Shown: positions 13,613 through 64,000 of the stretch, piece by piece
Numbering within the stretch: position 1 is the first letter of the stretch
Layout: each line of letters starts with the position of its first letter
Assembly (NCBI RefSeq): GCF_036669915.1
Contig: NC_089318.1
Coordinates: 21,702,755-21,766,754, forward strand
Reading direction: 5' to 3'
Length of the DNA: 64,000 bases
From: Pocillopora verrucosa
Lineage: Eukaryota; Cnidaria; Anthozoa; Scleractinia; Pocilloporidae
Program-made: the position numbers and the translations under genes
Notes under the pieces: model-generated
The model's database searches: none
What the model was told of the DNA's origin: nothing
The model's input: the letters and a program-made list of their open reading frames with translations, nothing else

Positions 13613-14080
13613 TTAAGTGTCCTTTTTATCCTCTTCGGCTTTGTCCAGTAACAAAGATCTTATTCCAACTTTCTGCAGTTCCTCGATCAATTCACCTTGT
13701 TGATGCAACTGTAACACAATATCGCATCCACCGATAAATTCTCCTCCAATGTAGACTTGAGGAACTGTCGGCCAGCTCGAATATTCTTTCACTCCCTGCC
13801 TCAGTTCCTCGTCTTCTAGTACGTTATAAGCTCCATAACCTTCGACACCATGCATCCGAAGAATCTGAACAACAGCATTGCTAAAACCACACATTGGTTG
13901 CTCAGGAACTCCTTTCATAAAAACCACCACTTTGTCCTTCTTTACGACTTCATCGAATTTTTCTGTTGTCCATGTGGCTACTTGGTCACTGAGGAAGCGT
14001 AACTTAGCTGTAATACGGCCTGTAGGAGGACCGAAGGAAAGAGATCTGTTTAAAATCCGTCGTACAACCAAGGTGGCCAT
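13613..14080 (-). CDS. GLRX5: Mitochondrial monothiol glutaredoxin 5
   Basis: GLRX5 receives a [2Fe-2S] cluster from the ISCU/HSCB-HSPA9 system and passes it to ISCA1/ISCA2 and other acceptors in the mitochondrial matrix. The frame is 155 residues (human 157). It has an Arg-rich, amphipathic N-terminus typical of a matrix presequence, the monothiol active site CGFS at residues 64-67 preceded by KGVPEQPM, the cis-proline motif WPTVPQVYI, and the GGCDI glutathione-binding turn. The Met at 14080 is preferred over the upstream in-frame Met at 14155 because the downstream peptide [16 protein letters not shown] makes a good presequence. The coding region is one uninterrupted exon, whereas neighbouring genes are intron-rich. 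ISCA2, its functional partner, is at 22.4-23.4 kb on the same strand. Confidence 0.95.
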
Positions 14081-15329
14081 CTTAAAAGTCACCAGTCTTC
14101 GCAAGTCACCCTCATTCAAACTAATACCCAGACTTCCCGGCTCTTGCTCTAACAAGTCATCTTGAGGGTCGTTTTGCTATAAAATGGAGATACGACCTAA
14201 TAGGGATGTAATACAATTTATACTTAACTGGACGTTGCTCGGAAAAAACCTTAATCGAAAATGGAAACTTGACGAGGTGACAATAAATTCACCTTTAATC
14301 TCTTGCGTGACTGGATTTGAATGGCGTTACTATTACGAAAGGTTCGCTCATCTTTCTGGGCTGGCACTTTTTTTAACCTTTCGAGGTTTCAGGGAAATCT
14401 TGAGTTTTCACGAAATGTAACAAAAAACTTTCGGGTCGCGTATATTTAAGGAGGCAAATCAAACTTTAAACTAGTTCTTAAATTTACGGATCACGCTCGC
14501 CTTTGACACCTTTAATATCCCTAACATGTAGTTGGTTCTCAGAAATGTCTATGACTATGTGCGCGCCGAAGCGGACGGCAGCCGGATGTTGAGAGTTTAT
14601 GCATGCGCTACAGGTTTTTGTCTAAATCTTTTAACTTTGTTAAAAATGTCAAAATCTTACGAAATCGAGCCTGGAGAAGTTGCATAACACCTTCCCCCAT
14701 ACCTCCCTACTATGAATGCGAGGCTGAATTCACTACTGTCATACGATCAGGCGACAAATAATTAATTCAAATCAATTGATGCACATGGATTCGCAATCTG
14801 TAGGTCAGTTTTTTGCACTTGTAGCTTGAAAAATTATGTATTTTCATTAGTTTTCACGCAGTAACTTGTTTAGTGGATGTTTAATCAAGGAACTTACCGA
14901 GATCTTGCGCGATTAATTTTCTCAGTTATTCGCTAACTTGACTTATCACTCACTTTGACAGTAGCTGATATTTTGGATCTTACGCAACAACCTCCGATTG
15001 ATTGGCTACCCAGATAGGGTGACGCTTTTGTCACGAAAGCGATGACGAATCGACAGTCCTATCAAGAAGAATTAAAGGACAAAGATCTGCGCGATTGCTG
15101 TACATTTTGTACCATTGACATCTTAAAGATTTTTGAAACTAAGCTGGAAGACAAGATTTACCTATAAGGTTAGCGCTTTTAGTTGTGACAGCTTCAAACT
15201 TACGCAATTTCGTCGCCACACCCCCCGTTGCGTCTTAACAATCTTACAGCTGTCTCGTTGCATCTTAATCAACCGCTGAAGTGCATCGAGGCGCTGCCGT
15301 CCACACTGGACTTTTACGGTGACATCAAA
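14081..15329. other. Divergent intergenic region between GLRX5 and the desaturase gene
   Basis: This probably contains the promoters of the two diverging genes. A 78-codon plus-strand open frame at 14184-14420 starts 103 bp from the GLRX5 ATG, but has no family likeness and no splice support, so I do not call it. Nothing else is recognised. Confidence 0.5.
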
Positions 15330-17918
15330 ATGGGGGGACATGTATCGAGGACTGACTTTCGAATGGTCTTACACAGCCGAACCACATGCTTCAAGAAGGA
15401 AGGAAATTTTAGGTAAGAAATGCAAGCATCGAGCTCGTTTTCTTTTTTATCGTTAAAGGGAAGGACTCGAACGCTCTCAGATTTTGCGCTTGTTTGCTTT
15501 GGCAGACGATGAAAATTTATATTTTCACGCGGAAAGAATTGCCAGTACAAGTTCACTCTGGTAAACCATTTTCAAGTTGACTCTTTTATTGTTTTGATTA
15601 AATGGTTTTCTCCCGAAGGGAATTCATCTGAAATAAAAATTCTCACCCTTCTTTGTAAATAAACGAGAGAGAAATGCCGGTTCCGTGCATCGGGATCTGT
15701 AGCCGCAGGCATCGGGACTCATGGCCACTCTTGATTTAGTATTGATTCGGTATGAAATACGAGTATTTAGTCATCGAATTTTCCACGACTGTATCAATTC
15801 TTCTCTCTGAAAATTTATACTAGAGAACCCACATGGAAGAGCATTTCTTATTTCAATCGGTACACCTAAAGGACTATGTTATGCAATGAGATTGAACTAA
15901 CCTCGTGTAAAAAGTAATGTGATTTCCCACTGAAAAACTTAAATTTGTGAATTATTTCGAACATACAGTATCCAATCTGAACTAAATGAACCTTGTTCAA
16001 TCTCAAGATCGAACTTATTATTTTGGATTGCTTCGTTTCTTATGGCCTTAGTCTGATATTCCAAGCTGTAGTAGTACAAAATGAATTATTTATTCAGTGT
16101 CAAGCTGAGTTGTCTGATGTACAAAGGGCGAAATAATATCATCCGTCGGGCCTGATCATTTTCCGTTTTGCTTGGAAAAAGTTTGAACAGCTATCAAGAT
16201 TCGATTGAACAAAAGTAACATTTATATCCACATGTACTCTCTTGAATGACGAAACAGGATACAGTAAAAACAGTTCATCAAATAAGTTATATAACAATCA
16301 AAATAGAAATTTACACATATACGCTAAATGTATGCAAACAAAAGCAAAACCACTCCTTCTCTTTCTCAGTCACTTCTTGTGACAACAATAACAAAGAATA
16401 ACGAATCTTTTCATGCTCACAAGAGGAGATATTAATATGAAGTAAAAGAGAATTATTTAGCATTTACAGGCAAATCTTTAACAAGCAAAGTAAAATCTTT
16501 ACTGGAAACCCAAGAGCTAGAGGAAGCGAAAGGTTTCCAACCACTTCTTACCTATTCAAAGTTTTTATTTTAAAGCAGAAGAGTGAAAGAAACCAGACTA
16601 ATATAGGAAATGTGATATTATTTGGTAATACAGGCACTAGACTTTTTATTCAAGGAATCATGTTCTGACTACAAATAATTTCTTTTTTTTTTTGGTGAAA
16701 GAGTTTGTATTTAGGTCTTTCAACTGATGAGGAATGTCTTACCAGAGATCTAGTGCATGGTCTATGAGACCATGAGAAAAAATTGCTTGTATTTTCCCAC
16801 TACCTCCAGTTTTACAGAGTTCTTAATAATGACTAGAGTTACCATTTCATTTCTCTGTTGATGTCACCTATTTCTACGATCAATGTATATTTTTTCATCA
16901 ACCTTCAAGTTGCAAGTGTTTTCTTTTCTCTGTGACAGATTCTAAAGTTACCATTTTATTTCTCTTGATATCAACTTTTGTTTGTGATCAGCACTATAGT
17001 TTTTGTTCACTAGTAAAATATTTTCTGTTCTCTTATCAGCTAAGTACCCCAAAATCAGAAGTTGATGGGCTATGATCCAAACTTCAAGTACCAAGTATTG
17101 CTGTTAATTGTGATCCAGTTCACATTGACATATGTGCTGAAAGATTTCTCCTGGCCTGTCATCTTTTTGGCTGCATATTTTGTTGGTGGCGTCATCAACA
17201 CATGCATTACTCCTAGCCATACACGAGATCTCCCACAACTGGCATTTGGCCATGCACGACCAATCCACAACCGAATCTTCTCACTGATAGTAAACTTTCC
17301 TATGGAGTACCATGTGCCATCTCCTTCAAGAAGTATCATTTGGAGCACCACAGATACCAAGGTGATGAAGAGCTGGATGTGGACCTGCCCACAGAATTTG
17401 AAGCCCGTTTGTTTTTTAACACATTAAACCAAATTTTTCTGGGTGGTATTTCAACCATTCTTCTACTCATTCCGCCCAATGTTTGTTAACCCAAAGAATC
17501 CTTTGGCTTTGGAAATCTTCAACATTATTCTCCAGTTTGGTGTTGATGCAGTGATAGTGCATTACTGGGGAGGAAAGGCACTTTGTACATGATTGCAAGT
17601 TCACTGTTAGGTATGGGGCTTCACCCAGTGGCTGGGCATTTTATCTCAGAGCACTACATGTTTGCCAAGGGTTTTGAAACCTTCTCATACTATGGCCCTT
17701 GAATATGGTCACCTTCAACGTTGGTTATCACAATGAGCATCACGATTTTCAAGTATTCCTGGTTCCAGACTACCCTTGGTGAACGAGATTGCACCAGAGT
17801 ACTATGACAATTGCCACAACATCACTCCTGGACAAAAGTACTTTTTGATTTCATCACTGACCCAGCAATTGGACCATATGCTAGGATGAAACGAAAGGCT
17901 ATGAAGCCAAAAAAATAA
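15330..17918 (+). pseudogene. DEGS1: Sphingolipid delta(4)-desaturase DES1, frame-broken copy (assembly-damaged gene or young pseudogene)
   Basis: DES1 inserts the 4,5-trans double bond of dihydroceramide in the ER membrane. Exon 1 (15330-15412) opens MGGHVSR and ends with a GTAAGA donor. Exon 2 (17040-17918) begins in phase and restores the family sequence EILAKYP across the junction. The histidine boxes are present: HEISH near 17215, HLEHH near 17343 and HNEHH near 17730. The C-terminus reads [12 protein letters not shown] then TAA. Reading through needs about ten frame changes, all single-base: extra bases near 15360, 17200 and 17427, and missing bases near 17061, 17240, 17304, 17582, 17700, 17750 and 17811. 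Once the frame is followed, no nonsense substitution and no missing motif is seen. The intron is kept, so this is not a processed copy. Indel-only damage points to a poorly polished stretch of assembly more than to genuine decay. Confidence 0.88.
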
Positions 17919-44500: not shown

Positions 44501-47500
44501 ACCCTATTAAGACCCTCAGTTACTGAGAAACCTCTGGTTGACAATAAATAATATCGTTGTACCGTAGACGTAGGCGGGACGTATGATGAGCTGTACAACG
44601 CCTGATAACATGACCGATGCATTATCTATTCAGCAACCATAATTTTCATCTTGTGTACTCAGCTGAGCGGGTGAAATAGAAAATATGTGACAACGGACTC
44701 ATTCCTTCTTATCGTTTAGGACGAGGCGTCTCTTTCCTTATCAGAGAGCACGCGCATGTTCATCAAGCGTTTGGGAAGTGCTTACATCGATCAGCTAAAG
44801 TGGAGAGGCATGTGGGTGTTTATTGTCCAACGGTTGGGCACTCGAAACATTGTGTACGGCGAGAGTTTTCAGGATGCACCGAATCTTAACCAGTGGGCAA
44901 GACCAGTGAGGCTACACGTAACCGCACAACTAGTGGCAGAAAATATTGTCAACTGCAAATGGGACGACTCCGACGCTACCAAGAGACGAAGAGAATTTTG
45001 TGAAAAATATGAAGGATATGGCAACGTTTGCAATTGTAAGTACATGTATAATCTGAGCTGTCATTGAGAGCCGGTAGCCCTTCAAAAGTGCTGGTTAGTG
45101 GGGCATCTTAAGCTTGTTACTTTCACCTTGTTTTACCATAAGTTGTGGTTAAAAATCGCATGATTACAATTAATGCGTTATTATCTTACAAGCAAAATTT
45201 ACCAGTAGCATGTTTAGATGTTTGCTCGAAGGTTTGTGTGATCTTCGTGGAATGCATTTCACCTGAATAGTTTCAAGTTTTTTCCAGGTATTTTTATGAT
45301 TTTTTACACTCCGCGGAAGTCTTAAAATTAATAAGCCATAACATGCTTTCTGTAACTTCGTGAATTTGACGTAGTTCTTCATAGGGACTCATCAATTCCT
45401 TCTTTGTTTCTCAGGTGACAATCCTCTTTCGCTAGAATTTGACCCGCCCTCTTTTAGAGACAACAGCCGACTGAAGTTGCCCGTGGCGGTCATGGCTGGT
45501 AACAGACCAAGTTACCTACTACGCATGCTCTTAAGCCTTCGTAACGTCGAGGGTCTGGATCCTAGTTTGGTAACAGTTTTCATCGATGGTTTTTATGACG
45601 AACCTGCCTCGGTCGCTAAACTGTTTCAACTACATGTGGAACACCATGCAGGCTCGGGGAGATTAAACTCCAGAATTTGTCAGGTATAGCGTGCTTAGAG
45701 CGTTTAGTCGTAAAGTTGGAAGTTCCAAGAGGGTTTTCCCCATCTACTTAATTTTGTTCTAATGATTTTCATTTTTGTGTTATTTCCCTCAGCATTACAA
45801 GAAATCGCTGACAGCTTCGTTTGACAAATATCCCGATGCTGATTACCTTGTGATCTTAGAAGAGGATCTCGATATGTCCGTTGATATCCTCAGCTATTTT
45901 AAACAACTTCTTCCTGTCTTAGAAAACGATGAAAGCCTTTATTGCATATCAGCTTGGAACGACCAGGTATGTTTGGTGTTGAAAGGCTGGACTGTTCACG
46001 GAATACAGCTTAACTTTTTTTATACAACAAAATTGATCGCGACGCTTGAATCGCAAAAATATTGATGCATGTTCTGAATTACTAATGAGTTGGGATGAGA
46101 TGAAAACACATCTCGTCCACGAGAAGTAAAAGTATTCCAAATTCTCCCACCGACGCAGCACCACAGTTTCTTAAGAAGCTTACCCCCCGTATTCCATGTT
46201 GCTTGGACTACTTTTTCTACTTAAAATTCATATAACTCTTAATATTGATACAGATTCTGAATTGTTGAAATACCTGATACCTTCTTCAATTTAACTTCGT
46301 AGGGTTATGACCATCTTGCAAATGATCCTGCCATGTTGTACAGAGTAGAGACCATGCCAGGATTAGGATGGTAAGGGATGCGTTAGTTATTAAGAATGGT
46401 ACTCATACTAAAGTTCAGAGATAAAACTATGGCGACCACTTTTGAAAAGGAGATTGCTTTCCTTTAAGATAGCAGCACAAACTTAAATTAGCTGTCTCAA
46501 TTCTTCGCTTTCGCTTTTGAAATTGCTTTATTCTGAATTCTTTTTTACGGAAACGGTTAGCATTACGTCATCCAATATACCTTTTGACGTAAAAGCAAAG
46601 TAACAAACCTTGGTGATGAGGCAAGTTAGTTTACAGGTAGAATTCAACCAGGAAATGGAAGAGCGTAGGGATGGAGTCTGATGAAATCTATGATTCGTGT
46701 GTGGCTTCAACTAAAAAGGGCAAGCCTTAATCAGCAACAGTGATCAAACACGGAAAATTCTTGAAAGTCCTAATTAGATGCGGGCTGAACGATCCTTTCT
46801 TTTTCCCCATAATGTGTTGCACCCTAAATGGGAGTTGGTTGTAAAAATTTCAAAAACAATGATTGAATTTTTTGGTGAAAAATGGCCACCAAACTTTGTC
46901 GGTAGCCATCGCCGGCCCAACCCATTTTTCTCTACGTAACAAACCCCTCCTTTCTCCCTCAGGGTGTTAAAGCGTAAGATATACAAGGGGGAGCTAGAGG
47001 AGAAATGGCCGAAGCCCCATCAGTCAGCTGACTGGGATATGTGGATGAGGCTTCCTTCCATCATCAAAGGTCGTGAATGCATCATCCCGGACATTTCTCG
47101 TACTTATCACTTTGGAGCCAAAGGACTTAATGTGGGAAGCTTTATGCAGAATATTTATTTCAAACATCATGCTCTGAACAAAGAAACAAATGTCAAGTTG
47201 AATGCGGAAATGATGTATAAGGATAACTACGAAAGAGAAATATTTCGTCTAATAGGGTAAGAACCTTGTTTTAATGTTAAAAAAAGTGAGCATCTAGCTG
47301 GAGCTAATCCCGGTTTCCATAGCATGAAGCTGCTAGGAGTATTACTATGCGATGCCAGTTCATCGTAAGGTTACCCCCCAGCTTTTCATCAGGCTTCCTT
47401 GAAAACTCACCGGAACCCATAACGCAAATCATTTTACTCACCTGCTTCACGTTTATCCAGTTGTTACCTCATTAAACATTTAGGTTTTCCAGTTTATAAC

Positions 47501-50481: not shown

Positions 50482-51817
50482 TCACTCGTGCAATCCAAAC
50501 ACCTCGTAATCTGTTACTTTAAATTTCTTTTTCCCCGTTAGGAATGTCGCCTGCTGGCCTGGAGGAGTGTCAAACGATCGGCCGAGATGGCTAAAACCTG
50601 ATATATTTCCTTCTCCGTCCCTTGATATGATTTCCAGGTCGCGCTGTCCTCCAAATTTGGGTCCCAGGCTGCTATCACAGTAAAAACCTTTCAGATGAAT
50701 TTTGTTTATCGGCATTTTAGTAGGTCCCAGGCCATGAGGATTAACCATGCTGAATAGGAATGCTTTTGATTGTGTGACCCACGTGACGCGACCTAGAAAA
50801 GTAACTTTTGTTTCAGAAACTCTATTAGAGGTATTGTTAGCTATGGTACCTTCATGTTGATTAATGTTTGTACCGACGTTTCGTCATAAAATGTTTATAT
50901 ATTCATGCTATTGTCTAGGCTTTCTGCTGAATCAACGCCGTACATTCGTGCAAGAACGAAAGACTATATATGCCAATCCTTTTTATTTAAATTTATGAAC
51001 CAGAAAGTAAGGAAGACTTAAACTTTATTAAAGTTGTCTCCTGAAAAATGTAGAGGTAAACGGTCAGATGCTGTACCAACTACAAAGAACTGGCCAGGTA
51101 TGTTTTTTTATAGGCCGTGTACCAGTGAGCGATCCGAATTCTACTTGGTCAGCAATGGTGGATGTGTCATACGTGAAGATACAGTAAGGAAGTGGATAAA
51201 TGTTAGTTGATAAATTCTTCAAGTGCAACTGACTTACCACTCATCCATGGCATGTCTGTGAATCCACCGAAAATATTGTTCACGCTGTTTACAATGGTGA
51301 CAGTGGGTCCTTTGTTGTCACATTTGGAATGAAAGCGTTCGGCCGAAGAGCCATCGCGAGAAGCTCGGTACAAAAGGACCCAGGTCCTACGCGAAGAAGG
51401 CAACCAGGATTGAAGCACCCGGCAATGCTCAATAGAAGTTAAAATCTTGGATTCCTGAAATGGTTCAGGAGATTTGTTTGCTTGAAGTGAAGATCCAAAA
51501 AAACTTGGCTCTTTTAACTCGTTAATAATTCCTGTTATCTGGTAGAAATCAGCCTCTTCTTCGATTTCCCTCAGAATTTTTTCTTCATCCGGTAAAGTCA
51601 ATTTCCCAGTTCGTAGGTAATTGAGTATAAATCGAAAGTGAGTTCCATCCCGGTCGATAAAGAAGGCGCCGTCCTCAGAAGGTCTCATTTCAAACTTTCC
51701 CGAAAACATGGCGGCAAGCATTGAGTCTGGATCTTTGGTCAGTGTTTGAAGACTTGTTGTGAAGTAATGGCCGCCAACATTGAGTTTTACAGTCGACGAG
51801 TACATACCACCATTCAT
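50482..51817 (-). CDS. BTB/T1 (KCTD-type) - TLDc fusion protein, copy A
   Basis: Two exons in transcription order, 51817-51238 and 50792-50482, encode 296 residues. Residues about 7-105 are a K-channel-tetramerisation-type BTB domain (STVKLNVGGHYFTTS, SMLAAMFSGKFEM, DGAFFIDRDGTHFRFILNYL). From about residue 130 to the end is a TLDc domain: LLYRASRDG, FHSKCDNKGPTVTIV, IFGGFTDMPW, then after the intron FLFSMVNPHGLGPTK and the closing DYEVFGLHE. By family knowledge, T1/BTB domains oligomerise and can recruit CUL3, and TLDc domains bind the V-ATPase and protect against oxidative stress; this protein's role is unknown. The Met at 51817 is assumed. The frame stays open upstream and meets a plausible acceptor (TATTTGTAAG), so an N-terminal exon like the coiled coil of copy B may exist unseen. 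It is about 63% like copy B by eye in the BTB part. Confidence 0.85.
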
Positions 51818-51965
51818 TGCTAAATCCCTCGAAATGGGTTCTATTGACTTACAAATAGGAAAAAATACAAAAATAATTTTAAAATTTGAATTAAAAAAAT
51901 TCAGCATCATTTAGCATCGTGTACTTGCACTATTTCTTGACACACAGAAGTGATTATTAGACACT

Positions 51966-52024
51966 TAATGTATGGTCCCGAGGGAAAACAAAACTAACTA
52001 GTTTCCCGAGGGACCATACATTTA
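51966..52024. repeat. Near-perfect hairpin upstream of BTB-TLDc copy A
   Basis: The arms TAATGTATGGTCCCGAGGGA and its complement (51966-51987, 52002-52024) enclose a 14-base loop. It is probably the end of a dispersed non-autonomous element that may extend to about 52200. It lies about 150 bp upstream of the assumed start of copy A. Confidence 0.75.
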
Positions 52025-52950
52025 GTGCTTTGTTAAATATTTAGACTTTCCCTTAAACAATCATATGGCAAAAACATGCTGTTGTATCCGGCGCGTAGGA
52101 AACAACTGCGCATTTGTATCCCGGTCGGATTACATTTAAAATTTGATCAGCGGCACGTGACCAAGAATCAACCAATTACAGTGCTCGTTTTGTTGAGTGA
52201 AAGTCTGGGTGTGTAACAATATCCTTTCCCAATATCCTCAAGTTCTTTAAAACTTCTAAAAGAATATGATTTTTATTTTTTTATGATGATGATGATTTTT
52301 TTATTTTTTTAAGTAGCTTCCTGTCAACCAATGAATCCACGATATGAGCTAATAGTTTTGGGGTTCAGGCTAGGGATAAAAAAAAAATGTTTACAATTGA
52401 GAGCCCCACCACGACTCAACTTACATATTGTAAGTATTTTTTTTTTCAATTTGCAATTTAGTAGTTTCCAGCCTTAGGAAAACGTACCTTCACAAAAGTT
52501 ATTCTTTCTCCGATAAAGTAACTGTAGAATTTCACGATAAATGCCTATTCATGACTAATTTTGGGTTATGCGTGTGCATTTATTACCACGCTCCAAAAAT
52601 ATACCATTTCTTTCTGCTCTTGAGCGAAGGCAGCGAATGAGTAATTTAATTTCACTTTCGTCTTTTGCGTGATATTGATTCCATTTGAAGCTTGTGAAGC
52701 TTAAAGTTTGATAGGCTAACTACAACGAGTCTTCAAAAGCTCTTCAAAAACGATTTAGAATTCAGAAAGTTCGAGTCCGGCGGCGAACTTTTCGTTTGAA
52801 TTTGTTTTTCGGTGTAGGCTTGTGTCCTTAGGGTAAAAGTATTGTAATTCAGGTCAGGTTTCCTTCGAAAAGAAGATTAAAACTGGAGATATGGGTTATC
52901 GCAAGAGAAGCAAAATCGAATCCTACAGTGTTGGCACCAAAGTGTTACTC

Positions 52951-53138
52951 TTAGGGATTTTAAAGGCCTATTTACACGGCACGACTTTGTCGCATGCGAC
53001 AAGCTTACGACAGGCCTACGACATAACTTAAGAGTCGTAAGCGAGTTGTAGGTTTGATTTACACGAAACAATTCGTGTCGTAAGCCTGTCGTAAGCTTGT
53101 CGCATGCGACAAAGTCGTACCGTGTAAATAGGCCCTAA
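52951..53138. mobile_element. 188-bp palindromic DNA transposon (MITE)
   Basis: The left arm (TTAGGG..., then GGCCTATTTACACGG and CGACTTTGTCGCATGCGACA) is repeated as its complement at the right (TGTCGCATGCGACAAAGTCG, CGTGTAAATAGGCCCTAA). The arms are about 50 bp and nearly perfect. The left arm has a short insertion after TTAGGG. High arm identity suggests recent activity. It has no coding capacity. Confidence 0.85.
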
Positions 53139-54880
53139 GAAAACCACTACAGCAACGGCAACTGGAACCTTACTAGACTAAAGTGTTTATGAGCAGAACA
53201 GTGGCTGTGCACGTATGGTATAAATCTTTGCGTCCTCTGCAAAACAACGTGAAATGACCCAACTCTGCGCTGTCTGGAGAACATGACTCCGACGACGGGT
53301 AATTTTTTAAATTTCTAATTTAACGCTACTCTCCGTATTCAGGTTCGAGATAGTTTTGACAGCGAGAAACAAACTTAATGACTTTAGAGTACTGCGAAAT
53401 TCGTAGGCAAAACAAGTTTATTGTTTAATCGACGTTGTCGACAACTAACAAAGCCCACGCGAAGCTCGCAAATCACTATTTTGTTCGTGAAAAACCATAA
53501 TAAATCAAATGGCACTCACACAGATCTTTCACTTTGCTCGATGTATGTTCTGTCTATTACCTTCCAAGTTGAGGTATATTTGTTCACTGTTTCCTTGCCA
53601 AACAACTGAGCTCAGACAATCTTTCTACAACCCCACACCTAGCAATTGTCATCAACACCCAGAGCAGTGGCGTAAGAAAGGATTCCCATTTGTGTGGCTA
53701 ATTCAAAGACGTGTACTCGAATATTTATAGACGGAGAGTGTCGCAATCGTCTGGCAGACTGCGTGCTCACCCTGTTTTTAATTGCAGTTGGCAATCAACT
53801 TATTTCTTCTTTGTTTCCAGGGTTTAGTATAAACAACTCAAAAGTCACGCAACTTTCACGATCCGTCAACTATCGATTGATTGAGATATCTCAAAAAGGC
53901 TATATAACCTTGGTAGTCTGAAATTTAGTCGTAAACATTCCTCTGAGTAAACAGTAAAGACACTAAGATGAACAAAATTTTTAATTGCTTGTTTCTATGG
54001 CCTTTTTTATGTCCAAAGTCAAGTGTTCATGAATTCTAAACGAGTTAATTAATATACAATTCAGCGTATATCATTTCGGAAACTTAATTTTTGCTCACTA
54101 ATTTTAGTGTTGCGAATTGAAGGCGAAAAAATCACAATTTTCTCGAGAAAATCCTGATCGTCTCCTTCTATGCGAAAGCAAATCTAATAACTTGGTACAA
54201 AGACTTGGAAAAAAGGCCTTAATATCGCTTCAGTGGACAGATTATTGTAATTACAGTGAAAGTAATTTCAACATTTCTTACCAGAAAAGCCAGTTGCTAC
54301 AGTAACCCAACACCTGCTTAAGGCCGAATTCACGCAAGAGAGAAGAGAGAGAAGTTGTGCTTTGATCAAAAACTATCATCACCCAATTTTAAGTGTGTTA
54401 CTAAATTAGCGAAACTATTTTCTCTTAATAAGAGATGATCAGCCTATTCTTTTTAGGCTAAGCTTGTGATTTACAGTCGTGACTGTATGAAGTGGCACCG
54501 TACTGTGCGGTGACCTTGTTTAAAGCAGTTGGTTCGCAAAAGTCCCATAATTTTTTCCCTCAATTACCCAATTTTCACCTCAATTTCGCTGTCGTAGTCG
54601 CCCTTTGCTGAGGCCCGACAGTCTCTTTTTACTGTTTTCGACTTGCATCGAACGGAATCTAACGATCCCTTAAAGATTACCCACTCAAATTACATTAGGA
54701 ATAATCTTTCACATAAAGTTTAATCCATGTTTACCTCCCAAAATCAATGTTAGAAAGATTATTGAGCAAGTTTTTTTAAATTAAGAGGTAAATTATGGCG
54801 AAACGTGGCGTTTCTTTATTATTTTGTAAGACTCCCATTGTATTAAGCTGTCAATCTGTATGGATGAGCGGTTTATACAG

Positions 54881-55198
54881 GTTCGACTGTTATTGCAAAA
54901 CAGATGTAACAATTGATTCAAGCTTAACGTGTGTATTTCGCAATCTGAAGCAAGCAGTAAGGTTCATATTGAGAGCACGAACTTCTAGCCTCATGAGCAC
55001 TCTCCAAATTTCCTCTGTGTTTCATATCGCGATATACAGGTTCGACTGTTATTGCGAAACAGATGTAACAATTGATTCAAGCTTAACGTGTGTATTTCGC
55101 AATCCGAAGCAAGCAGTAAGGTTCATATTGAGAGCACGAGCTTCTAGCCTCATGAGCACTCTCCAAATTTCCTCTGTGTTTCATATTGCGGTATAAGC
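54881..55198 (+). repeat. 159-bp tandem duplication keeping an open frame
   Basis: Two 159-bp copies (54881-55039, 55040-55198) differ at only a handful of sites. The period equals 53 codons, so both read through in one 133-codon frame (54795-55196). The sequence is related to the arm of the 49602-49740 palindrome, which argues that it is repeat DNA and not a gene. Confidence 0.85.
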
Positions 55199-55698
55199 AC
55201 GCTAACCTTGAACTATTGGCTTGTGACCCGATTGTGTCAGTTAAATTAGGTAATTACCTATCCGGATTTAAAGTTATGAATAAAAGAAAGGCAAAATCGA
55301 ACAAAGCAATATTTCGAGAACTAAGCTTCTTTCAAAGAAAAGCTAACTTTGTCCTTAAGACAAAAATCTCTGTAAAAGCGGTTCGGTGCATCCAAGAATC
55401 GATTTCTTTCAAACTCTGCCGGTGAATCTTTCTTAGTCTGAAAGTAACTGAAACCACCTTGGATTTTCATATATATTGAAAATTTTAGGTATGTGTGATT
55501 TTTGTTTGGAAAAAAGAAAAATAATACGGTAAACCTTGATATTTGTGCCTCACATTTATCAAAACAGAAGTCGAGAGCATGTAGGTATAGTCTAAGTGCA
55601 AGGCTAATTGTTGTTGTGACCTGTTGTCATGTGTCATGCATGTCTTCTGCAAGCTATCTATTTACTATTCCTAACGGTCTTTTCGTTTTTCATTTCAG

Positions 55699-56034
55699 CT
55701 CATGTGGATGATCATATCTCCGTCTTGAGACCAGGATGTCGACTGTATGAAAAAGGACTGTCAGGTAAAACTAACAAAAGCTCGGTCAAAAATGAGCTTT
55801 CGGTTCAGTGCAAAATAATATCGACCAGGTCTCTGAGGAAATTCATCCAAAATAGGTCCGCTCGGCGTGCAAACGATTACTCCATCGAGTCAAAAAGGAC
55901 TTATTTTGACCTCAAAACGATCCCTTTTTTTTCGTGGAAAAGCCATCGTGAACAAGACTGCCCTTGTGCGAAAAAAGCTAAATGGCGCCCTTCAAATCAA
56001 GCAAAGAATCAACGGGCAGCTGAAGCTGGTGAAA
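55699..56034 (+). CDS. Candidate exon of an unidentified gene
   Basis: After a strong acceptor (TTTTTCATTTCAG) a 336-bp open segment runs to a good donor (GAAA then GTAAGT). Its peptide begins HVDDHISVLRPGCRLYEKG and later has QDCPCAKKAKWRP. A run of eight or nine T at about 55922-55931 lies in the middle; beyond it, a second frame (IVNKTALVRKKLNGALQIKQ) is equally coding-like and reaches the same donor, so the base count there may be wrong. I recognise no family and found no clear partner exons. Confidence 0.28.
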
Positions 56035-56882
56035 GTAAGTTCACTGAAATTCTCTCAGTTCAACTTTTTAAATGGGTCATTTCCTTCACCATTCAGGTGG
56101 AAATTTCAAACGAGAATGAAGTAAAAATGTTATTTCATCGGTCGCTTCCTTCCACGAGGTGTCTTTTAGGCATCTCACCTTAGACATTTTTCATTTGCCG
56201 TCGGAAAAATTTTCAACATGTTTTAAGGTATTGTGCTAAATTTGAACTTATTTCCTCGTGTCTATAAGAAAAAAGTGGTGTCGCGAATGTAGAGCATTTT
56301 CAACACTAATGTTTATTGGACGCTAATTTGAGGTTAGGTTCTTTAATCTTGGAAATGGCTCCATAGAGTTTTCCGAGAAAACTCTACGTTAAATGCAATA
56401 TATACATGCAATAACTTGGATAAGTTTTAATTGATGTAAGTGTGGTGAATATGCCGATTTAATGTTAACACTTTACCCCCATCGGTTTTCCGTTACACCC
56501 GTAGTATAAAGTTGACAACTGTTGTCTTTTCCTGTTGTTCTACAAACAATACTGTCTACCCCAATTTGAATAATCTCACATACTCAGACGGCACTGTTAA
56601 AAGAAGAAAAGGAAGAGTAAAAACCGTCAAATTTATACCTTCAGCCGGACAGAAAGCCGATATAGGCAAAGGATTTTTTTCTTCAGTATTATTTCATTTG
56701 CTATTTTTTTTCTAGCTGTTTTTCGAAATAAATCCTACAGTCCAAATAAAAGTACTATCGATCGAGTATGGCCGAGTGAAAGACCAAAACAATACAAGCG
56801 AAACCATTGGAGTATTTATGACTAGTAAAAAATTGGATACGCCTAGAAGTTCGTTGCTTTAACAGTCAAGCCTAAAAAATAG

Positions 56883-57019
56883 GGGTCAATATTAGTATCT
56901 GGGCAACTGTCCACCTACCCCTCCCCTAACCCAGCATTAACCTTAACTTGTTGTCAATTGACTGTTGTTGATTTAGGGGAGGGAAAGGTGGGCAGCTGCT
57001 CAGATACTGATATTGATCC
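56883..57019. repeat. Palindromic element, family 4 copy
   Basis: The arms GGGTCAATATTAGTATCTGG...CCCACCTACCC and the complement ending ACTGATATTGATCC match the element at 34749-34884, with the loop in the opposite orientation. The DNA following each copy also shares a GAAGCCTTGA...CTAGAGCACGAAAGAAG segment (35185-35255 and 57085-57155). Confidence 0.8.
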
Positions 57020-57461
57020 AAAAATAGAACAAAACCTAGGCTCGGATCGTTCAGCGCGTACTAACGGAATACTACGAATAAAGAAGCCTTGAATGTACCC
57101 CGTTCTGCCCTAAAGCAAGCAGGTAGGCGACTAGAGCACGAAAGAAGTGTAGGGGGGGAGGGACACGAGACATGGTGGAGTGTTTCCCCCTTCTTCTTGA
57201 GTAGACATACCTCCTGCAACGGAAACTTAGGTGAAAATGTTAGACGGGACGTGGGAGCGTTGATAGGATTGTTTCGGAGGATGATATCAAGGAGGAAAGA
57301 AGATGCGGCTAATCCATAATCAAAATTACTGCAAGGTTGCAAATGTGAAACGTCAATGCTTCTGAAAAGCCTTCTCGTAAGGGTCAATGCTTCTTTTCAA
57401 CTGAAAAGCAAAACTAGCAAACCAATGCAACGGCATATGCAAAAGTGCGACCATTAAGTCA

Positions 57462-57720
57462 ATGACAACTCCGAGCAGCTTTTCCCCTGCCGCTTCCTCT
57501 AATTTGATATTATCGATATAAATTTCCATTGTAGTCTCGCTGCTTTGGGATAGCCTTTGAACAGAACCAATTAGCAGGTGTTTGGTCTTCTTTGTGTTTG
57601 GTATCATCCTGTTCAATTTAAACCAACTGTTGGCCCTGTCTAGACTATTATTAAGAGTGTTTTGAATATCTGTACAATTGGTTCCGCTCGACCAGATCGT
57701 TGTATCATCGGCATATATCC
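57462..57720 (-). mobile_element. Inverted 5' part of a non-LTR retrotransposon (reverse transcriptase core)
   Basis: Read on the minus strand from 57720, the peptide begins with the polymerase motif YADD (YADDTTIWSSG) and continues SLDRANSWFKLNRMIPNTKK to EAAGEKLLGVVID. The last ~30 codons are the same as the start of the plus-strand part that follows, so the two halves are the same element in opposite orientation. Confidence 0.8.
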
Positions 57721-58620
57721 CAAAGCGGCGAGACTACAATGGAAATTTATATCGATAATATCAAATTAGAGGAAGCGGCAGGGGAAAAGCTGCTCGGAGT
57801 TGTCATTGACTCAAACCTTTCATGGAACTTACACATTGACTGTTTGATTAAAAAGTTAAACTCTAGAATATGTCTCCTTAAAAGAGCAAAGGTTTATTTA
57901 ACCTTTGCTTGCAGGAAAATGTTATACAATGCCCTCATCAAGCCAATACTAGAGTATTGTTGTACAGTCTGGGGCAACTGTACCGTTGGTAATCTCCAAA
58001 GAGAAAACGAAACGATGTGCTAGGCTTATTTTAGATGCTGATACTCACGAAAACTCAGTCAAGCTTTTTAACAAATTACATTGGCTGCCTATAGATGATA
58101 TCATACGTATTAGGAAGCTTTATTTGCTTCATAAAATAAATCAAGGACATTGCCCGGCTTATTTTAATAAATATATTGAACATATAAGTAACAACCATAA
58201 TTATAACACGAGATCCGCTTCTAATAACAATATTACAACACCAGCTTGTAAAAGGAACTCTGGCCTTAGAACGTTTCACTCAAGCGCTTGCCGTTTGTGG
58301 AACGCTCTTGATCCCGAACCAAAGACACTCTCTCATACTAATTTTAAAAATTACTTAGTTAAATTTTACCGTAGTATGACTTCTTTTCTTGATCATTTTA
58401 AGATTCGTAAAACTTTTTAGTTTCATTAGTAGTAAATCAATCAATATTGTATTAATAGTAGTTCTTAATGTGATTTTAGTTTGTAGATTATATAGGTAGT
58501 CAATTATTCAATCGATACATTTTAGTACTTTAATTGTAGGAGGGCAATTATGAAAACTACTGGGTGACCAGTAATCAATGTCTTTACCCTCGTTAAATAA
58601 AGTTATTACTAACTTACTTA
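57718..58620 (+). mobile_element. Direct 3' part of the same non-LTR retrotransposon
   Basis: This is the reverse transcriptase thumb and C-terminal region of the CR1/Jockey/L2 type: EAAGEKLLGVVIDSNLSW, KMLYNALIKPILEYCCTVWG, then after one frameshift near 57990 RCARLILDADT, KLHWLPIDDIIRIRKLYLLH and NYNTRSASNNNI to a stop at 58420. The 3' end is an AATAAAG followed by ACTTACTTACTTAC short repeats rather than a poly(A) tail. It is a 5'-truncated dead copy. Confidence 0.85.
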
Positions 58621-59039
58621 CTTACGATTTGCCACTTTATTCAATTATAAGCACGATAACAAAGATGAAACTAGATTCTAAGTTCTGATTATTCAAACAA
58701 AGTCCAGTGGTTTTTTTTAAATAACTACACAATCCTCAATTTAGCTTGCCATGTTTGATGTTTGTTCGACCTTCAAAGGGGGTTGAACCACTAAGGTTCT
58801 CGTGGCTGTCAACATTACTTAAGATCACTCAAGATAAATTTCGGTCTCTGCACAGATTTTTTTTATAACATTTTACTGTAACCCACGAGCTACATGATAA
58901 AATATCCTTCACGCCTGATAGAATTATTTCTATACTCAAAAATTTATATCATTAACTGGCGGGGGAAGACGTAATATACTAGATCTAATACTAGTAGTTA
59001 TAATTGGTGAAAGATCTTCTGTGATCTTTTTGTTGTCAG

Positions 59040-60600
59040 TCACTGGATTCCAAACACTTCGTAATTGGAAACGGAGAAATATTTACCTCCTGTTAAGAAG
59101 GAACTCTCTTGCCCTCGTGGACATTCGTATGAGGTGCCGAGTTCACTGTGGCTGTCTGTGTTCTTGTTTGCATCATTTGAGATGAATAGATCTCTGGAGA
59201 TAGAAAAGAACAAAGAACCCCTGATGCCAAACGTGGGTCCATATCCGCTATGACCGACCATGCCAGATTTTTGGTTTTCACTCATGAGGGGCATTTTAGT
59301 CGGTCCTACACCATTAGGGTTGACCAAACTGAACAGGAATGATTGTGTGCTATTCACAAAAGTCGTAACTGTGAACGAAATGACACATCATATAAATGCC
59401 TGCTGTATACAAATAGACTGTGTCAAGGATAGTTTTCGCCTTGATTTTTTTTCTGCATTTATTGAAATAGTTCGTTCCGACTATTCCGATTGATTTCTTT
59501 CGTTTCACAAAGTACAACATGCCATATTTATCATAGTATCCTGTCAACCGAGTAAATAACTATTTTCTTTATTTTTTTGTCTATCATAAGAATATTGCTC
59601 CTTATAAATTACATCATGTTGCTATCTTATTTTGCTCATGGTGTCAGCTCTTATACTGGGTTATTTTCCCTTGATACATATTCCTTGCAGGAAAATAGTT
59701 AGGGGAACTACATGCAAGAGAAAGGCCTTGAAAACAATGCACCACAATTTAATAATCATGTGTCACCTTACCTGGACCGGAAGCCCATGATATTTCCATG
59801 AAGCCTCCAAAAATGTAGTCTCCACTCTGTACAATTGTGACCGTGGGACCTTTATTATCGCACCTGGAGTGAAAGTTTTGCGCCTTAAAACCATGGCGAG
59901 AGGCTCGGAATAGAAGGTGCCAGTTTTCGCATCCTGAAGGGAGAAACTTCCTTAGGGCATTTCGATGCTCTTCAGTTATTACAATCATCGACTCTCCAAA
60001 TAGCTCGGCTACTTTCAAACCAAGTATAGGAGACTGCGTCGGATCATATGGACGTTCAAGCGCGTCAACTAATTCCTGGATCTGATAAAAATTGGCTTCT
60101 TTCATGACTTCCTCAAAAACTGTTGCATCTTCTGGTAAAGTTAATGTCCCAGTGCGAAGAAAATTGAGAATAAACCGGAAGTGGGTGCCATCACGGTCGA
60201 TGAAGAAAGCGCCGTCTTTTGTAGGTTTCAGGTCAAATTTCCCTGAAAACATGGCGGCAAGCATTGAGTTTGGAGCGCCCTTGGTCAGCGTTTGAAGACT
60301 TGTTTCGAAGATGTGTCCGCCCACATTGAGTTTCACTGTCGAAGGAAAGTGAAAGTTCTCCACTTTCTTAGACAGTGCGTCGACTACTTCCCGCTCCTGG
60401 CGAAGTTTCTCCGCCTCTCGCTTAAATACCTTGCAGGCTTCTTCTATTTGATTCAAAGCTTCGCTTAGATCTTGATCTTTACGCTGATCTTCTTCTCCAA
60501 GGCTACCCTCACAGTGGGTTTCGTCATTCATATTTTCTAGCACAGACGGTCGTTCTCTCAAAGCAGACACAGCCTTGGTAATCTGACGCGAAGTTATCAC
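59040..60600 (-). CDS. BTB/T1 (KCTD-type) - TLDc fusion protein, copy B
   Basis: Two exons in transcription order, 60600-59772 and 59368-59040, encode 385 residues. Residues about 36-82 form a probable coiled coil (LSEALNQIEEACKVFKREAE then KLRQEREVVDALSKKV). Residues about 87-185 are the BTB/T1 domain (STVKLNVGGHIFETS, SMLAAMFSGKFDLKP, DGAFFIDRDGTHFRFILNFL). From about 215 to the end is the TLDc domain (LLFRASRHG, FHSRCDNKGPTVTIV, YIFGGFMEISW, then FLFSLVNPNGVGPTK, YECPRGQESSFLTG, NYEVFGIQ). The intron falls at the same place as in copy A, inside the TLDc domain. The Met at 60600 is the first in frame; MNDETHCEG 23 codons later is an alternative. Three 20-bp repeats, each with CACGTG, lie 101-160 bp upstream. 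Confidence 0.88.
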
Positions 60601-60700
60601 CTTTGCATGGTTTTGTATGACATGATTGTGAAAGGACGCATCATGCGAAAAGGGCCTGAGTTCGAGTAATTTGCATTTGAATCAACTGCTCAAAGCTTCC

Positions 60701-60760
60701 AACTGTGGCCCGCACGTGACAACTGTGGCCCGCACGTGACAACTGTGACCCGCACGTGAC
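60701..60760. promoter_or_regulatory. Three tandem 20-bp E-box repeats upstream of BTB-TLDc copy B
   Basis: AACTGTGGCCCGCACGTGAC occurs at 60701-60720 and 60721-60740, and with one substitution at 60741-60760. Each contains the palindrome CACGTG, a site for bHLH-ZIP factors (USF, MYC/MAX, MITF/TFE). Spacing is exactly two helical turns. The array sits 101-160 bp before the assumed start codon. Binding is inferred. Confidence 0.7.
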
Positions 60761-60964
60761 AAGACTGGTGAGGGAATTTGTAGAGTCGAGAAACTGTGAA
60801 AAAAAAAAAGAAAAAAGAAATAGACATATCTTGCGGAAGAAGCGAACAGGTAACCAACTCGATATAAGAGTATTTCTATTATACAGTTACGTCAACTGTG
60901 TAACAGCTTTGTTTCACTATCCTGACAGACGTTTTCCTGTGTCTATACTTGACACATCATGTTC

Positions 60965-61155
60965 ACACTTTACACCCGAACACCAGTATGCATATTCTCC
61001 ATACAGTTCTCTATACATTTCCTACGATGCTGCCAGGAGAATTTTGTTTCAAAAGCAAGAGCTTCTTTAGTTGGTGATCATTTCCTCTGTTCTTGTGACT
61101 TTTAGTTGTGATTTTGTGTTGATATTGTAAGATATTCTAGTCACTCTTAGGGTCA
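60965..61155 (-). repeat. Dispersed repeat family 2 copy, reversed
   Basis: It shares AGTATGCATATTCTC, ACATTTCC, GAGCTTCTTTAGTTGGTGAT and TCTAGTCACTCTTAGGG with the complement of 31404-31609 and with 26231-26425. Confidence 0.65.
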
Positions 61156-61375
61156 AGGGAATGTCTTCTCCATATTCTTCATGAATGAACAAAGGTGTAG
61201 GTTCTCTCATATACCTCGATAAATATTTGCGTTCTGTTTGTATGAGTATCAAAGGAGTCTAGCAAATTCGTTCTTTTGTCCTGTAGGACACTTACGCGGA
61301 GCCAAGATTACTGTAACTAGCTGAGTTTCCATTTACGTCATCTGCATCGCTTCCTTCAGCTGCTCCAAATGTTGG

Positions 61376-61477
61376 TCAGATGCCGTATCGTTGGCTTTTT
61401 CTATGGAGCAGCATTTTTGTCGGCTCCAGGCCCTGTGGATTCACCAAACTGAACAGGAATGCTCGAGTGCATGTAAA
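61376..61477 (-). pseudogene. Relic of a TLDc second exon (copy C)
   Basis: Minus-strand translation from 61477 gives FTCTRAFLFSLVNPQGLEPT then KMLL, matching FLFSLVNPNGVGPTKMPL of copy B, and stops at 61376. A possible acceptor (TTTCAAG) precedes it at the homologous position. The remaining TLDc sequence and any BTB exon are absent, so it is a truncated leftover of another array member. Confidence 0.7.
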
Positions 61478-61574
61478 CTTGAAAGTTTTGCAAGAATTCA
61501 AGGAAGTCTCAAAATAAATTATGCAAGGGCGGTAAATTACAAATAAGCACGACGTTTTGTTGTTTATCTGAACA

Positions 61575-61680
61575 GTTGATGTGGTGGCGCGAACTTTCCA
61601 GACTAATCACAGAGGATCTTAGAACCAATTAAAACAAAACTGATGCAATCCCAGTTTACTATCAACACTCATTTAAAAAT
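61575..61680 (+). repeat. Partial family 3 repeat
   Basis: GTGGTGGCGCGAACTTTCC, AGACTAATCACAGAG and CAACACTCATTTAAAAAT correspond to the second half of the 27414 and 50088 elements. Confidence 0.55.
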
Positions 61681-62867
61681 TTCTCCGTTTACACTCAAAC
61701 TGACGTGCCACATGACATTTGGGCAAAATCAGTAGATGTCCTCATTTGATGGATGATGTCATTTGATGTCCTCATTGGTTGGAGTTTATGAAGGAGGAAG
61801 CAAATGCTAGCTTTTTTGCCAACAGAATTCCTTGGAAGTTTACCGGTGACAAATTATTTTCTTCGGCGAAGGGAGCCACTTTGATCGTGTAAAGACTTCC
61901 CTGGGGAAACAGACAAAATTTCGGCCAGGTCTCGAACCCAGACCTCTAGAAAAGCAGACCCGGTTGTTCGAGGGGTGGATAGCACTATCTACCTGATAAA
62001 TCTGTATTAGGTTGATAGCACAGTACGTTTGTTATTTACCATAACACCTTGAGATTAATTGTAATTTTTTTGAAAACCAGGAGGTCGCAGTCGAACCAGA
62101 TTTTCTTTTGACGGGAACCTTTCAACTTTCCGCCGCAACATTTGTATTTTGATTGACAGTTTGAATGGGGCATTTCGCAACCCACGTGTTTTGAGGCCGG
62201 TTTCAAATTTGATTTTATTTGTAAGTTGCGAATCTTGGTATCCATAGTATTTTAGATTATGTAGTTTTTAACAGTTTTAAAGTGCTTAATGTAAATAGTG
62301 AATGTTTCTTGAATAACATTATGTACATTATACATTATGTAAGTCGTTAGTTTTTAGTTAATATGACGGATGTAGAGCTACGCTGTAGAAATACTGTCAA
62401 TAAATCGTTATTATTATTATTGTTTGTTGTTTACTTCTTGAAGAACTGGTATCGTATAGCTTTGTTCGCGCGATAAATAAGTTCATTTTAGTTGCCGAGT
62501 GGCTCATCAATACATTGTATTCAGTTTACTATCAATACAGTTTTATCCTAATTCTCACGAGAAATAATTTTCTTTTGAAAAAATCTCACGGTCATAATTG
62601 ATTTTTCTGCAATGGTTTGGGAGATGACGCGTATCTTATATAATTCTTTTCAAATCTATTTTTTGTGGTTAGGCCAAGCAGTATTCTTTCTCAAATTCAA
62701 CGCGGTAGTCTTGATGTCAGGAAAGGGATGGCCTCTTGCATAATATAGTTGGTAAATTTGTACATTCAAATTCAACTGCACTTGAAGACGTAAGGGTACG
62801 TATTGAAGAGTAGCGGAAGGAACCTCATTTTAGGAAACATCTCAAACTTCAGCGTCGACATGCTATA

Positions 62868-63010
62868 AAACGATTGTTTCGTACGTCAGCAATTAGTTTA
62901 TCAAAATATGAAGGACTTGAGAAGTCTATAGAACACTCAGGTAGCTAGAGGTACTCCCTGCTGCGCCTCGAGTTCAGTCTAAGGCATTTTTTCATGCTCT
63001 CCAAACTTAG
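62868..63010. repeat. Diverged family 6 repeat
   Basis: ACGTCAGCAATTAGTTTATC, ATATGAAGGACTTGAGAAG and CATGCTCTCCAAACTTA follow the order of the 49602-49740 palindrome, with many changes. Confidence 0.55.
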
Positions 63011-63342
63011 ATGTATTTAGGGAGGTAACTCAGATTACATGGGAAAGCATTAAGCGTGCGTTGTTCGTGATAACGTGGTAAAAGATTGGATCTGAGCTCG
63101 AGACAAATAATCAAAAAGTGATTGCAATAACAGGATGAATCGAACAAGTCGGTGGTAAGATCGGGTTCCAGTTTATTTCATTCAATCAAGATATCGATCT
63201 ACACTCCACTGGTGACGAAGAATTTTTTACTCCAACATTCTTATTTTTCGAAAAATCTATGATTTGGGATAGTATAAAATGAGGTATTAATACAAAAAAC
63301 CTCTCTTATATTGTATATTCCGGTTTTCTGTCTGTCATCAAG

Positions 63343-63656
63343 TCAATGTCGGATCCCAAACACTTCATAATTTGTTATTTGAAAACGTCCACTCCCTGTA
63401 AAGAATCTTCTCTGCTCGTCTCCTAAGTCGGGAGGACATTTATAAGAACAGTCAAGATAAAGTGAACCGTGGCGCCCTGTGATAGAGAGATCGTGTCCGT
63501 TGCCAAACATTGGTCCATAATCACTGTGACATTTAATGGCGGAAAGCTGTTGAAATGGATCTTTAAGTGGCAGTTTAGTTGAACCCAGGCCTAATGGGTT
63601 GACCAAACTGAACAAGAACGCCTCGGTACAGGCTTTGTAACCTCGATGCGGTCCGC
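63343..63656 (-). CDS. C-terminal exon of a further BTB-TLDc-type gene (copy D), running off the right edge
   Basis: After the acceptor ATCATTAG the exon begins in the same phase as copies A and B and encodes the second half of a TLDc domain: CTEAFLFSLVNPLGLGSTKL, HSDYGPMFGNGHDL, YKCPPDLGDEQRRFFTG and the closing NYEVFGIRH with a stop at 63343. The first exon, expected to carry BTB and the first half of TLDc, is not seen between 63657 and 64000 and must lie beyond the window. The BTB part is therefore inferred from its paralogues. Confidence 0.8.
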
Positions 63657-64000
63657 CTAATGATGAGATAAAATTTCAAATTAATCCAAATACCTGCTTT
63701 TAGAATTTGCTGTGTAACATCGATGTGGCTTACCTAATGATGAAGTAAAGTTAATACCTGCACCTGGGAAAGAAAACCTTAATGCACGCGTGCTGTGACA
63801 AGAGAATCTGCATCATGACAGACAAATCCTCTGATGAACACCAAAAATTATGCTATCACTCTTCGCTCGACTTGATGCGCACTTAGTGAGATAAAAAATG
63901 TAATATCTCCCTTGAGATTTCGATACGACTCCGAGGATTACTCGACAAATTTGACTTAGAATTCTGAATGACTATCAGATATTAAGCAGTTTAAAATGTT
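63657..64000. other. Intron of copy D at the right edge
   Basis: A short local duplication of the acceptor region is present: ATGCGGTCCGCCTAATGATG at 63646-63665 resembles ATGTGGCTTACCTAATGATG about 77 bp further on (plus-strand view). No exon is recognised here. Confidence 0.5.

Follow-up and report, generated by a model that had tools for sequence, protein, structure and literature searches.

The TLDc proteins, among them OXR1, NCOA7, TLDC2, TBC1D24 and mEAK7, have been studied mostly as V-ATPase or oxidative-stress factors, and in mammals TLDc is a V-ATPase-interacting module (PMC8608904, PMC9263379). BTB domains of the KCTD family chiefly drive the formation of oligomers (PMC10856315), and KCTD19 carries three BTBs in a single chain (PMC8699099). 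In nematodes and plants, the expanded MATH-BTB families have been hypothesised to act as adaptors that recognise foreign substrates (PMC4063957). Here we describe genes of the coral Pocillopora verrucosa in which TLDc sits behind a KCTD-type BTB in one protein. They were noticed in a stretch of 64,000 nucleotides (hereafter the window; C7:21702755-21766754, C7 being contig NC_089318.1), which holds two complete genes, A and B, and part of a tandem array that runs far outside it. The array is a large and real BTB-TLDc family, whose genes number in the dozens and lie on two or more contigs. We propose, with a probability of about one half, that its products are oligomeric, CUL3-linked ubiquitin-ligase adaptors in which TLDc serves as the target-binding arm.

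The array resembles the KCTD family in its BTB, which is of the BTB_2/T1 type and has KCTD10/BACURD3 and KCTD7 as its closest solved sequences (best PDB matches), and also in that, at four of the seven CUL3-contact positions examined, 29-34 of 34 array BTBs retain the residue or have a conservative replacement. Unlike in the KCTD family, the C-terminal domain is TLDc and not the KCTD C-terminal domain, and in some copies two or three BTBs stand side by side. The three BTBs of KCTD19 are the nearest parallel to the latter, but that protein has no TLDc, and its BTBs are spaced apart rather than being adjacent similar repeats. With OXR1, NCOA7, TLDC2, TBC1D24 and mEAK7 the array shares a Pfam TLD match over the full length of the domain (in A and B) and an invariant contact glycine; it differs from them in its BTB partner, in having nothing past TLDc, and in the C-terminal part of the domain (TLDc-C), for which no sequence match to the solved ones is seen. 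The likeness to the MATH-BTB families lies in the pairing of BTB with a second domain, in the size of the set and in its large tandem expansion, although the array has TLDc in place of MATH, a BTB of KCTD type, and no overall signal of positive selection.

We found no description of a BTB-TLDc fusion in the literature searched (queries on TLDc with BTB, cnidarian, coral and architecture, with few subscription journals covered). One TLDc paper that deals with the BTB protein BTBD6 presents it, in the excerpt available, as an interactor and not as a fusion. The papers that pair TLDc with coral are, judged by title, on other subjects than corals, and among those listed by broader queries one on Entamoeba (PMC6321534) names TLDc three times. 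A word search of the main text of three coral papers returned no mention of TLD, BTB or KCTD, and a Hydra symbiosis study lists KCTD9- and KCTD10-like genes as symbiosis-responsive, with no TLD mentioned. No relatives were confirmed in viral and prokaryotic contig collections, which were searched with strict patterns and are uninformative on other animals. Domain databases probably contain architectures that combine BTB and TLD from protists and cnidarians. What was new to us is the fusion, together with its scale and the forms with several BTBs. If the products are indeed CUL3 adaptors, the array would be a sizeable adaptor family, so far uncharacterised, from an animal outside the Bilateria, and would allow a direct test of TLDc partners other than the V-ATPase. 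The genes with several BTBs provide natural experiments on the stoichiometry of KCTD rings.

Genes A and B and the extent of the array

Both A and B are intact two-exon genes, with BTB_2 and a complete TLDc in one spliced frame. Pfam matches lie far above the curated cut-offs for both domains: in spliced A, BTB_2 at 3.6e-23 and TLD at 9.1e-26 (profile positions 2-169 of 170), and in spliced B, BTB_2 at 6.2e-22 and TLD at 2.4e-29 (3-170 of 170). The parts of these genes and of two further copies in the window are as follows.

51238..51817, minus strand: gene A exon 1, with BTB_2 (residues 10-97) and the first TLDc half; the TLD match starts at residue 121 (Pfam)
50793..51237, minus strand: gene A intron, 445 bp, GT-AG, phase 1, within TLDc
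50482..50792, minus strand: gene A exon 2, second TLDc half and stop codon
59772..60531, minus strand: gene B exon 1, with a helical N-terminus, BTB_2 and the first TLDc half
60358..60498, minus strand: gene B N-terminal helix, residues 12-58 (low-confidence structure model)
60067..60336, minus strand: gene B BTB_2 (KCTD/T1-type), residues 66-155 (Pfam)
59369..59771, minus strand: gene B intron, 403 bp, GT-AG, phase 1
59040..59368, minus strand: gene B exon 2, second TLDc half and stop codon
61262..61474, minus strand: relic, a pseudogene TLDc exon 2 interrupted by a frameshift and in-frame stops; lower end approximate
63343..63656, minus strand: edge copy, TLDc exon 2, with a phase-1 acceptor at 63656; its first exon would fall beyond the window

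A preliminary description made from the letters of the window had already called two complete minus-strand BTB-TLDc genes, placed TLD in their second halves, and seen the TLDc end of a third copy at the edge, and on all three points we agree with it. The edge exon by itself scores 5.7e-4 for TLD (20.3 bits against a curated cut-off of 24.5), falling below the threshold because it holds half a domain. A stretch within the intron of this copy (63709-63760) looks by eye like a partial duplicate of the exon 2 acceptor region. The fourth copy had been described as a 102-bp exon relic; it is a relic of exon 2, but a longer one, with a tblastn match over 180 bp (61474-61295) and eroded similarity on to about 61262. 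The same description gave three copies, labelled A, B and D, a common intron position and phase. Phase 1 indeed applies to A, B and the edge copy; if D was meant to be the relic, that part finds no support, as the only phase-1 AGs found upstream of the relic core are one at the core codon itself and one 131 bases off.

A and B are 54% identical across 302 amino acids. Every part shows more synonymous than non-synonymous change, which together with the domain matches puts these genes well outside what chance would give, with non-synonymous and synonymous distances (dN/dS) of 0.19/1.02 in BTB, 0.37/2.26 in the N-terminal part of TLDc (TLDc-N) and 0.44/2.76 in TLDc-C, the last two synonymous values being near saturation.

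Local expansion, which had been guessed from the window, is strongly supported and far larger than supposed. Across the genome (353 Mb, 52 contigs), a TLD profile search gave at least 156 matches, a lower bound because 150 of 257 candidates were scored. Among the matches listed, at least 29 first-half TLD matches fall on C7 between 21.605 and 21.919 Mb (about 315 kb), and at least 15 first-half matches plus one second-half match fall on contig C12 between 4.187 and 4.302 Mb. We inspected individual copies in 200 kb of the C7 cluster (less 15 kb) and in the window, with 21.660-21.703 Mb and everything beyond 21.890 Mb lying outside; 3 of the 29 C7 matches are in stretches outside the inspected sequence. 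This yielded 26 copies with a first TLDc half, in two blocks that face each other with the other genes of the window in between: eight plus-strand copies at 21.605-21.644 Mb and 18 minus-strand copies at 21.754-21.884 Mb. By permissive tests, 25 of these copies have a phase-1 donor (exactly GTAAGT in 21), and a second-half exon with at least one phase-1 AG follows the first half in 24, once at a distance of 4.8 kb.

Nineteen of the 26 copies pass a filter that asks for a BTB in frame and for TLDc halves without interruption (start codons were outside the filter). The remaining seven bear the marks of birth and death, lacking the second exon or an in-frame BTB, or carrying stops: two have no second half (one of them also with a stop), in one a stop accompanies a damaged second half, two have no in-frame BTB, one has its second half too distant, and one has a short first-half match.

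The remaining TLDc genes of the genome shed light on the origin of both the layout and the intron of the array. Among five sampled C12 loci, four combine BTB and TLDc by tblastn; in the fifth, L034, the upstream part was not covered. The two C12 genes that were read (L032 and L033) have an extra intron that splits the BTB. A 1786-amino-acid open frame at L034 (C12:4222500-4226500) was rejected as an artefact of bases read as N. The N-terminal helix of B has no significant homologue upstream of A within the window, and the single-sequence structure prediction of B exon 1 (mean pLDDT, the predicted local distance difference test, of 40) served only as a hint of an N-terminal helix. The N-terminus of B is 47% identical across 72 amino acids to that of a C12-cluster gene, the similarity extending into the BTB. 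This suggests that a layout of N-terminus, BTB and TLDc is probably ancestral, and that A lost the first part.

Further large TLDc clusters are seen at C13:2.17-2.64 Mb, at several places on C5 and at C14:1.40-1.46 Mb. Five loci from these contigs (L031 and L036-L039) match TLDc, and a search of 2.5-3 kb at each of them found no BTB at E 0.01. L037 and L038 have a phase-1 donor directly past a conserved tryptophan, as in the array, and L031 and L039 have none at that position; in L030, a mEAK7-like gene on contig C3, a phase-1 donor lies in the same loop a few codons downstream. Thus, with the donor at the same spot in two of four BTB-less TLDc loci examined, the common intron looks like an old TLDc intron rather than a hallmark of the array.

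BTB and TLDc surfaces and rates of change

The KCTD7 residues that contact CUL3 are given in PMC10856315. We mapped them onto the array through the KCTD7 alignment (offset 8, every named residue landing on the correct letter) and counted them in 34 of the 42 cluster BTB matches, excluding eight under 255 bp. Among the seven positions checked, D98 is kept in 34/34, M80 in 32/34 and M76 in 29/34, and Y131 is replaced by F in 33/34. The suggestion that the proteins are oligomeric and possibly CUL3-linked is thus plausible at the level of sequence, with KCTD10/BACURD3 and KCTD7 as nearest solved BTBs and the contact positions partly kept.

The plus-strand block is distinguished by tandem BTBs. Six of its eight copies have two (five genes) or three (one gene) BTBs head-to-tail, in the same frame as TLDc-N; this arrangement occurs in none of the 18 minus-strand copies. 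Pfam, run on four of the six tandem genes, finds three BTB_2 stretches in one open reading frame and two in each of the others. A tree of 37 BTB rows gave no resolution between a single and a repeated internal duplication. M76 is kept in all 21 BTBs of single-BTB copies against 8 of the 13 in tandem copies (one-sided Fisher p of about 0.005, for a test picked after the data were seen and with losses that are partly dependent), and all six tandem genes retain it in at least one BTB. The restriction of the losses to tandem copies suggests that a CUL3-type surface may be free to decay where a spare BTB exists, and constraint on M76 seems to relax only there.

We estimated dN/dS from 21 near pairs, taken from the 171 pairs of 19 genes, and from a disjoint set of seven pairs. 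TLDc evolves faster than BTB by both counts. In the near pairs the median ratios are 0.19 for BTB, 0.24 for TLDc-N and 0.49 for TLDc-C, with TLDc-C above BTB in 18 of 21; summed over the disjoint pairs, they are 0.26, 0.41 and 0.39, respectively.

Judged by its sequence, the TLDc of the array is divergent. In A and B the general Pfam TLD model aligns along the full domain, unlike the alignments to solved structures, which end mid-domain: matches to mEAK7, skywalker, zebrafish Oxr2 (E 0.021) and yeast Oxr1 (E 0.037) cover the first TLDc half only. A bacterial PEP-CTERM TLD family is matched by the domain as well (E 2.9e-13 and 5.3e-13, at some 50 bits where the curated cut-off is 100), so the fold does not by itself point to the eukaryotic pump. 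In mEAK7, G276 contacts V-ATPase subunit B1 (PMC9263379), and in NCOA7 the substitution G815A abolishes V-ATPase binding (PMC8608904); G815 is probably the same residue as G276, an equivalence drawn with no NCOA7 sequence aligned. The G276-equivalent glycine, located by counting along the mEAK7 PDB-match alignment, is invariant in the array (25/25 first halves of at least 200 bp). The first half holds three more mEAK7 contact residues: H277 is F in 23 of the 25 copies, P316 aligns with P in B and in the edge copy and with R in A, and Q317 is lost. The position two past the glycine is variable.

Possible functions of the array

In the adaptor model that we favour, proteins of the A/B type would act as adaptors, probably in the cytosol, given their domains. 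The BTB would assemble into a KCTD-type ring, probably a pentamer, and dock CUL3, and the faster-evolving TLDc would form the target-binding arm. The whole cluster, whose copies have multiplied in tandem, some of them decaying, and in one sub-array of which the BTB is repeated within a single frame, would then amount to a set of ubiquitin-ligase adaptors comparable in general plan to the expanded MATH-BTB families of nematodes and plants. Several observations weigh against this model. Three of the seven contact positions are mostly replaced (R65 by S in 27/34, H85 by F in 27/34, R84 by K in 24/34), and CUL3 binding is absent from some of the human KCTDs (PMC10856315), so a KCTD-like BTB is no proof of CUL3 docking. 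The M76 losses are not all independent, since the second BTBs of g634 and g643 cluster in the tree and a third has the identical change. On the seven disjoint pairs TLDc-C is no more variable than TLDc-N, and dN/dS exceeds 1 only in single pairs, every region as a whole being below 1; positive or diversifying selection is therefore not supported. In some gene pairs, moreover, the synonymous distance is markedly uneven between parts (0.49 in BTB and 0.08-0.10 in TLDc in one of them), and such unevenness suggests exchange (gene conversion) between copies, which would disturb pairwise rates.

If CUL3 is not involved, the BTB could merely multimerise TLDc in an oligomeric scaffold or sensor, with the multi-BTB copies shifting its stoichiometry. 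That would agree with the main role of KCTD BTBs in oligomerisation, CUL3 binding not being common to all of them (PMC10856315), and with the expectation that tandem-BTB copies change ring composition, for which KCTD19 offers a precedent (PMC8699099). The pattern of M76, on the contrary, is what a binding surface relaxed in spare BTBs would give, even if this residue could also serve packing, and we hold the scaffold to be a tentative and rather doubtful alternative. Another possibility is that a BTB ring offers several TLDc domains to the V-ATPase, which OXR1, NCOA7 and mEAK7 proteins bind, and so tunes the assembly or activity of the pump. The mammalian precedent and the invariant glycine speak for such a regulator, but the same glycine is needed for a bend between helices and may be structural (PMC8608904), and the replacement of H277, the variable position after it, and the structural matches that stop mid-domain all count against it, as does the PEP-CTERM match. 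The mEAK7 C-terminal helix, which matters for V-ATPase binding (PMC9263379) and which not every V-ATPase-binding TLDc protein has, also has no counterpart in A or B, both of which end with the domain, and the genome has a separate mEAK7-like TLDc gene in L030. V-ATPase binding by the array TLDc is thus possible and not to be assumed; a dedicated pump regulator appears unlikely to us, and the link to the V-ATPase and oxidative stress made in the preliminary description is weak, with the glycine in its favour, H277 and Q317 lost, and the matches to solved V-ATPase binders ending at mid-domain.

A more far-reaching version of the adaptor model would see the array as a fast-turning, chromosome-scale repertoire, distinct from NLR, TIR and lectin genes, in which multi-BTB forms pair a CUL3-competent BTB with one that lacks a contact residue and the variable TLDc recognises foreign or symbiosis-related proteins inside the cell. 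We offer this as a speculation that is more probably wrong than right by a wide measure. Lower still do we place a largely neutral expansion, driven by turnover and leaving few working copies, which we think improbable. Broken copies, stray exons and the relic are what it would leave behind, and coral genomes are rich in tandem duplicates: these make up almost a third of the predicted genes in two coral species (PMC10236652), so that the mode of expansion of the array is ordinary. Nevertheless, a largely neutral history sits poorly with the 19 of 26 copies that pass the open-frame filter, and with dN/dS below 1 in both domains, in A versus B as in the near-pair median.

Upstream motif and other features of the window

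Every one of the five GTCACGTG sites in the window falls in or close to gene A or B, with 0.59 expected by shuffling; one is in A exon 2 and the other four precede the start codons of A or B. Three tandem 20-bp units at 60700-60762, each with GTCACGTG, are placed about 190-230 bp upstream of the start codon of B. An E-box/CLEAR signal common to the family was considered and rejected: 3 of the 26 copies, A and B included, have the motif in the 900 bp that precede the first BTB, and 24% of random 600-bp pairs have some GC-rich 8-mer in common, which also counts against such a signal.

Elsewhere in the window, we observed an FHA-domain exon at 6049-6804 (Pfam; SLC4A1AP-like by eye), a glutaredoxin at 13613-14176 (Pfam; GLRX5-like by eye), an exon at 17044-17427 that is DEGS1-like by eye and has no Pfam match, and exons with ILEI and GNT-I Pfam matches at 44720-47260 (POMGNT1-like by eye). 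Remnants at 57353-58420 resemble by eye the C-terminal part of a non-long-terminal-repeat retrotransposon; the two open reading frames scanned there gave no reverse-transcriptase Pfam match. Within these remnants, an inverted 99-bp repeat has arms that are 98% identical (57454-57552 and 57716-57814), and a 159-bp tandem duplication at 54874-55195 consists of two copies with 96% matches.

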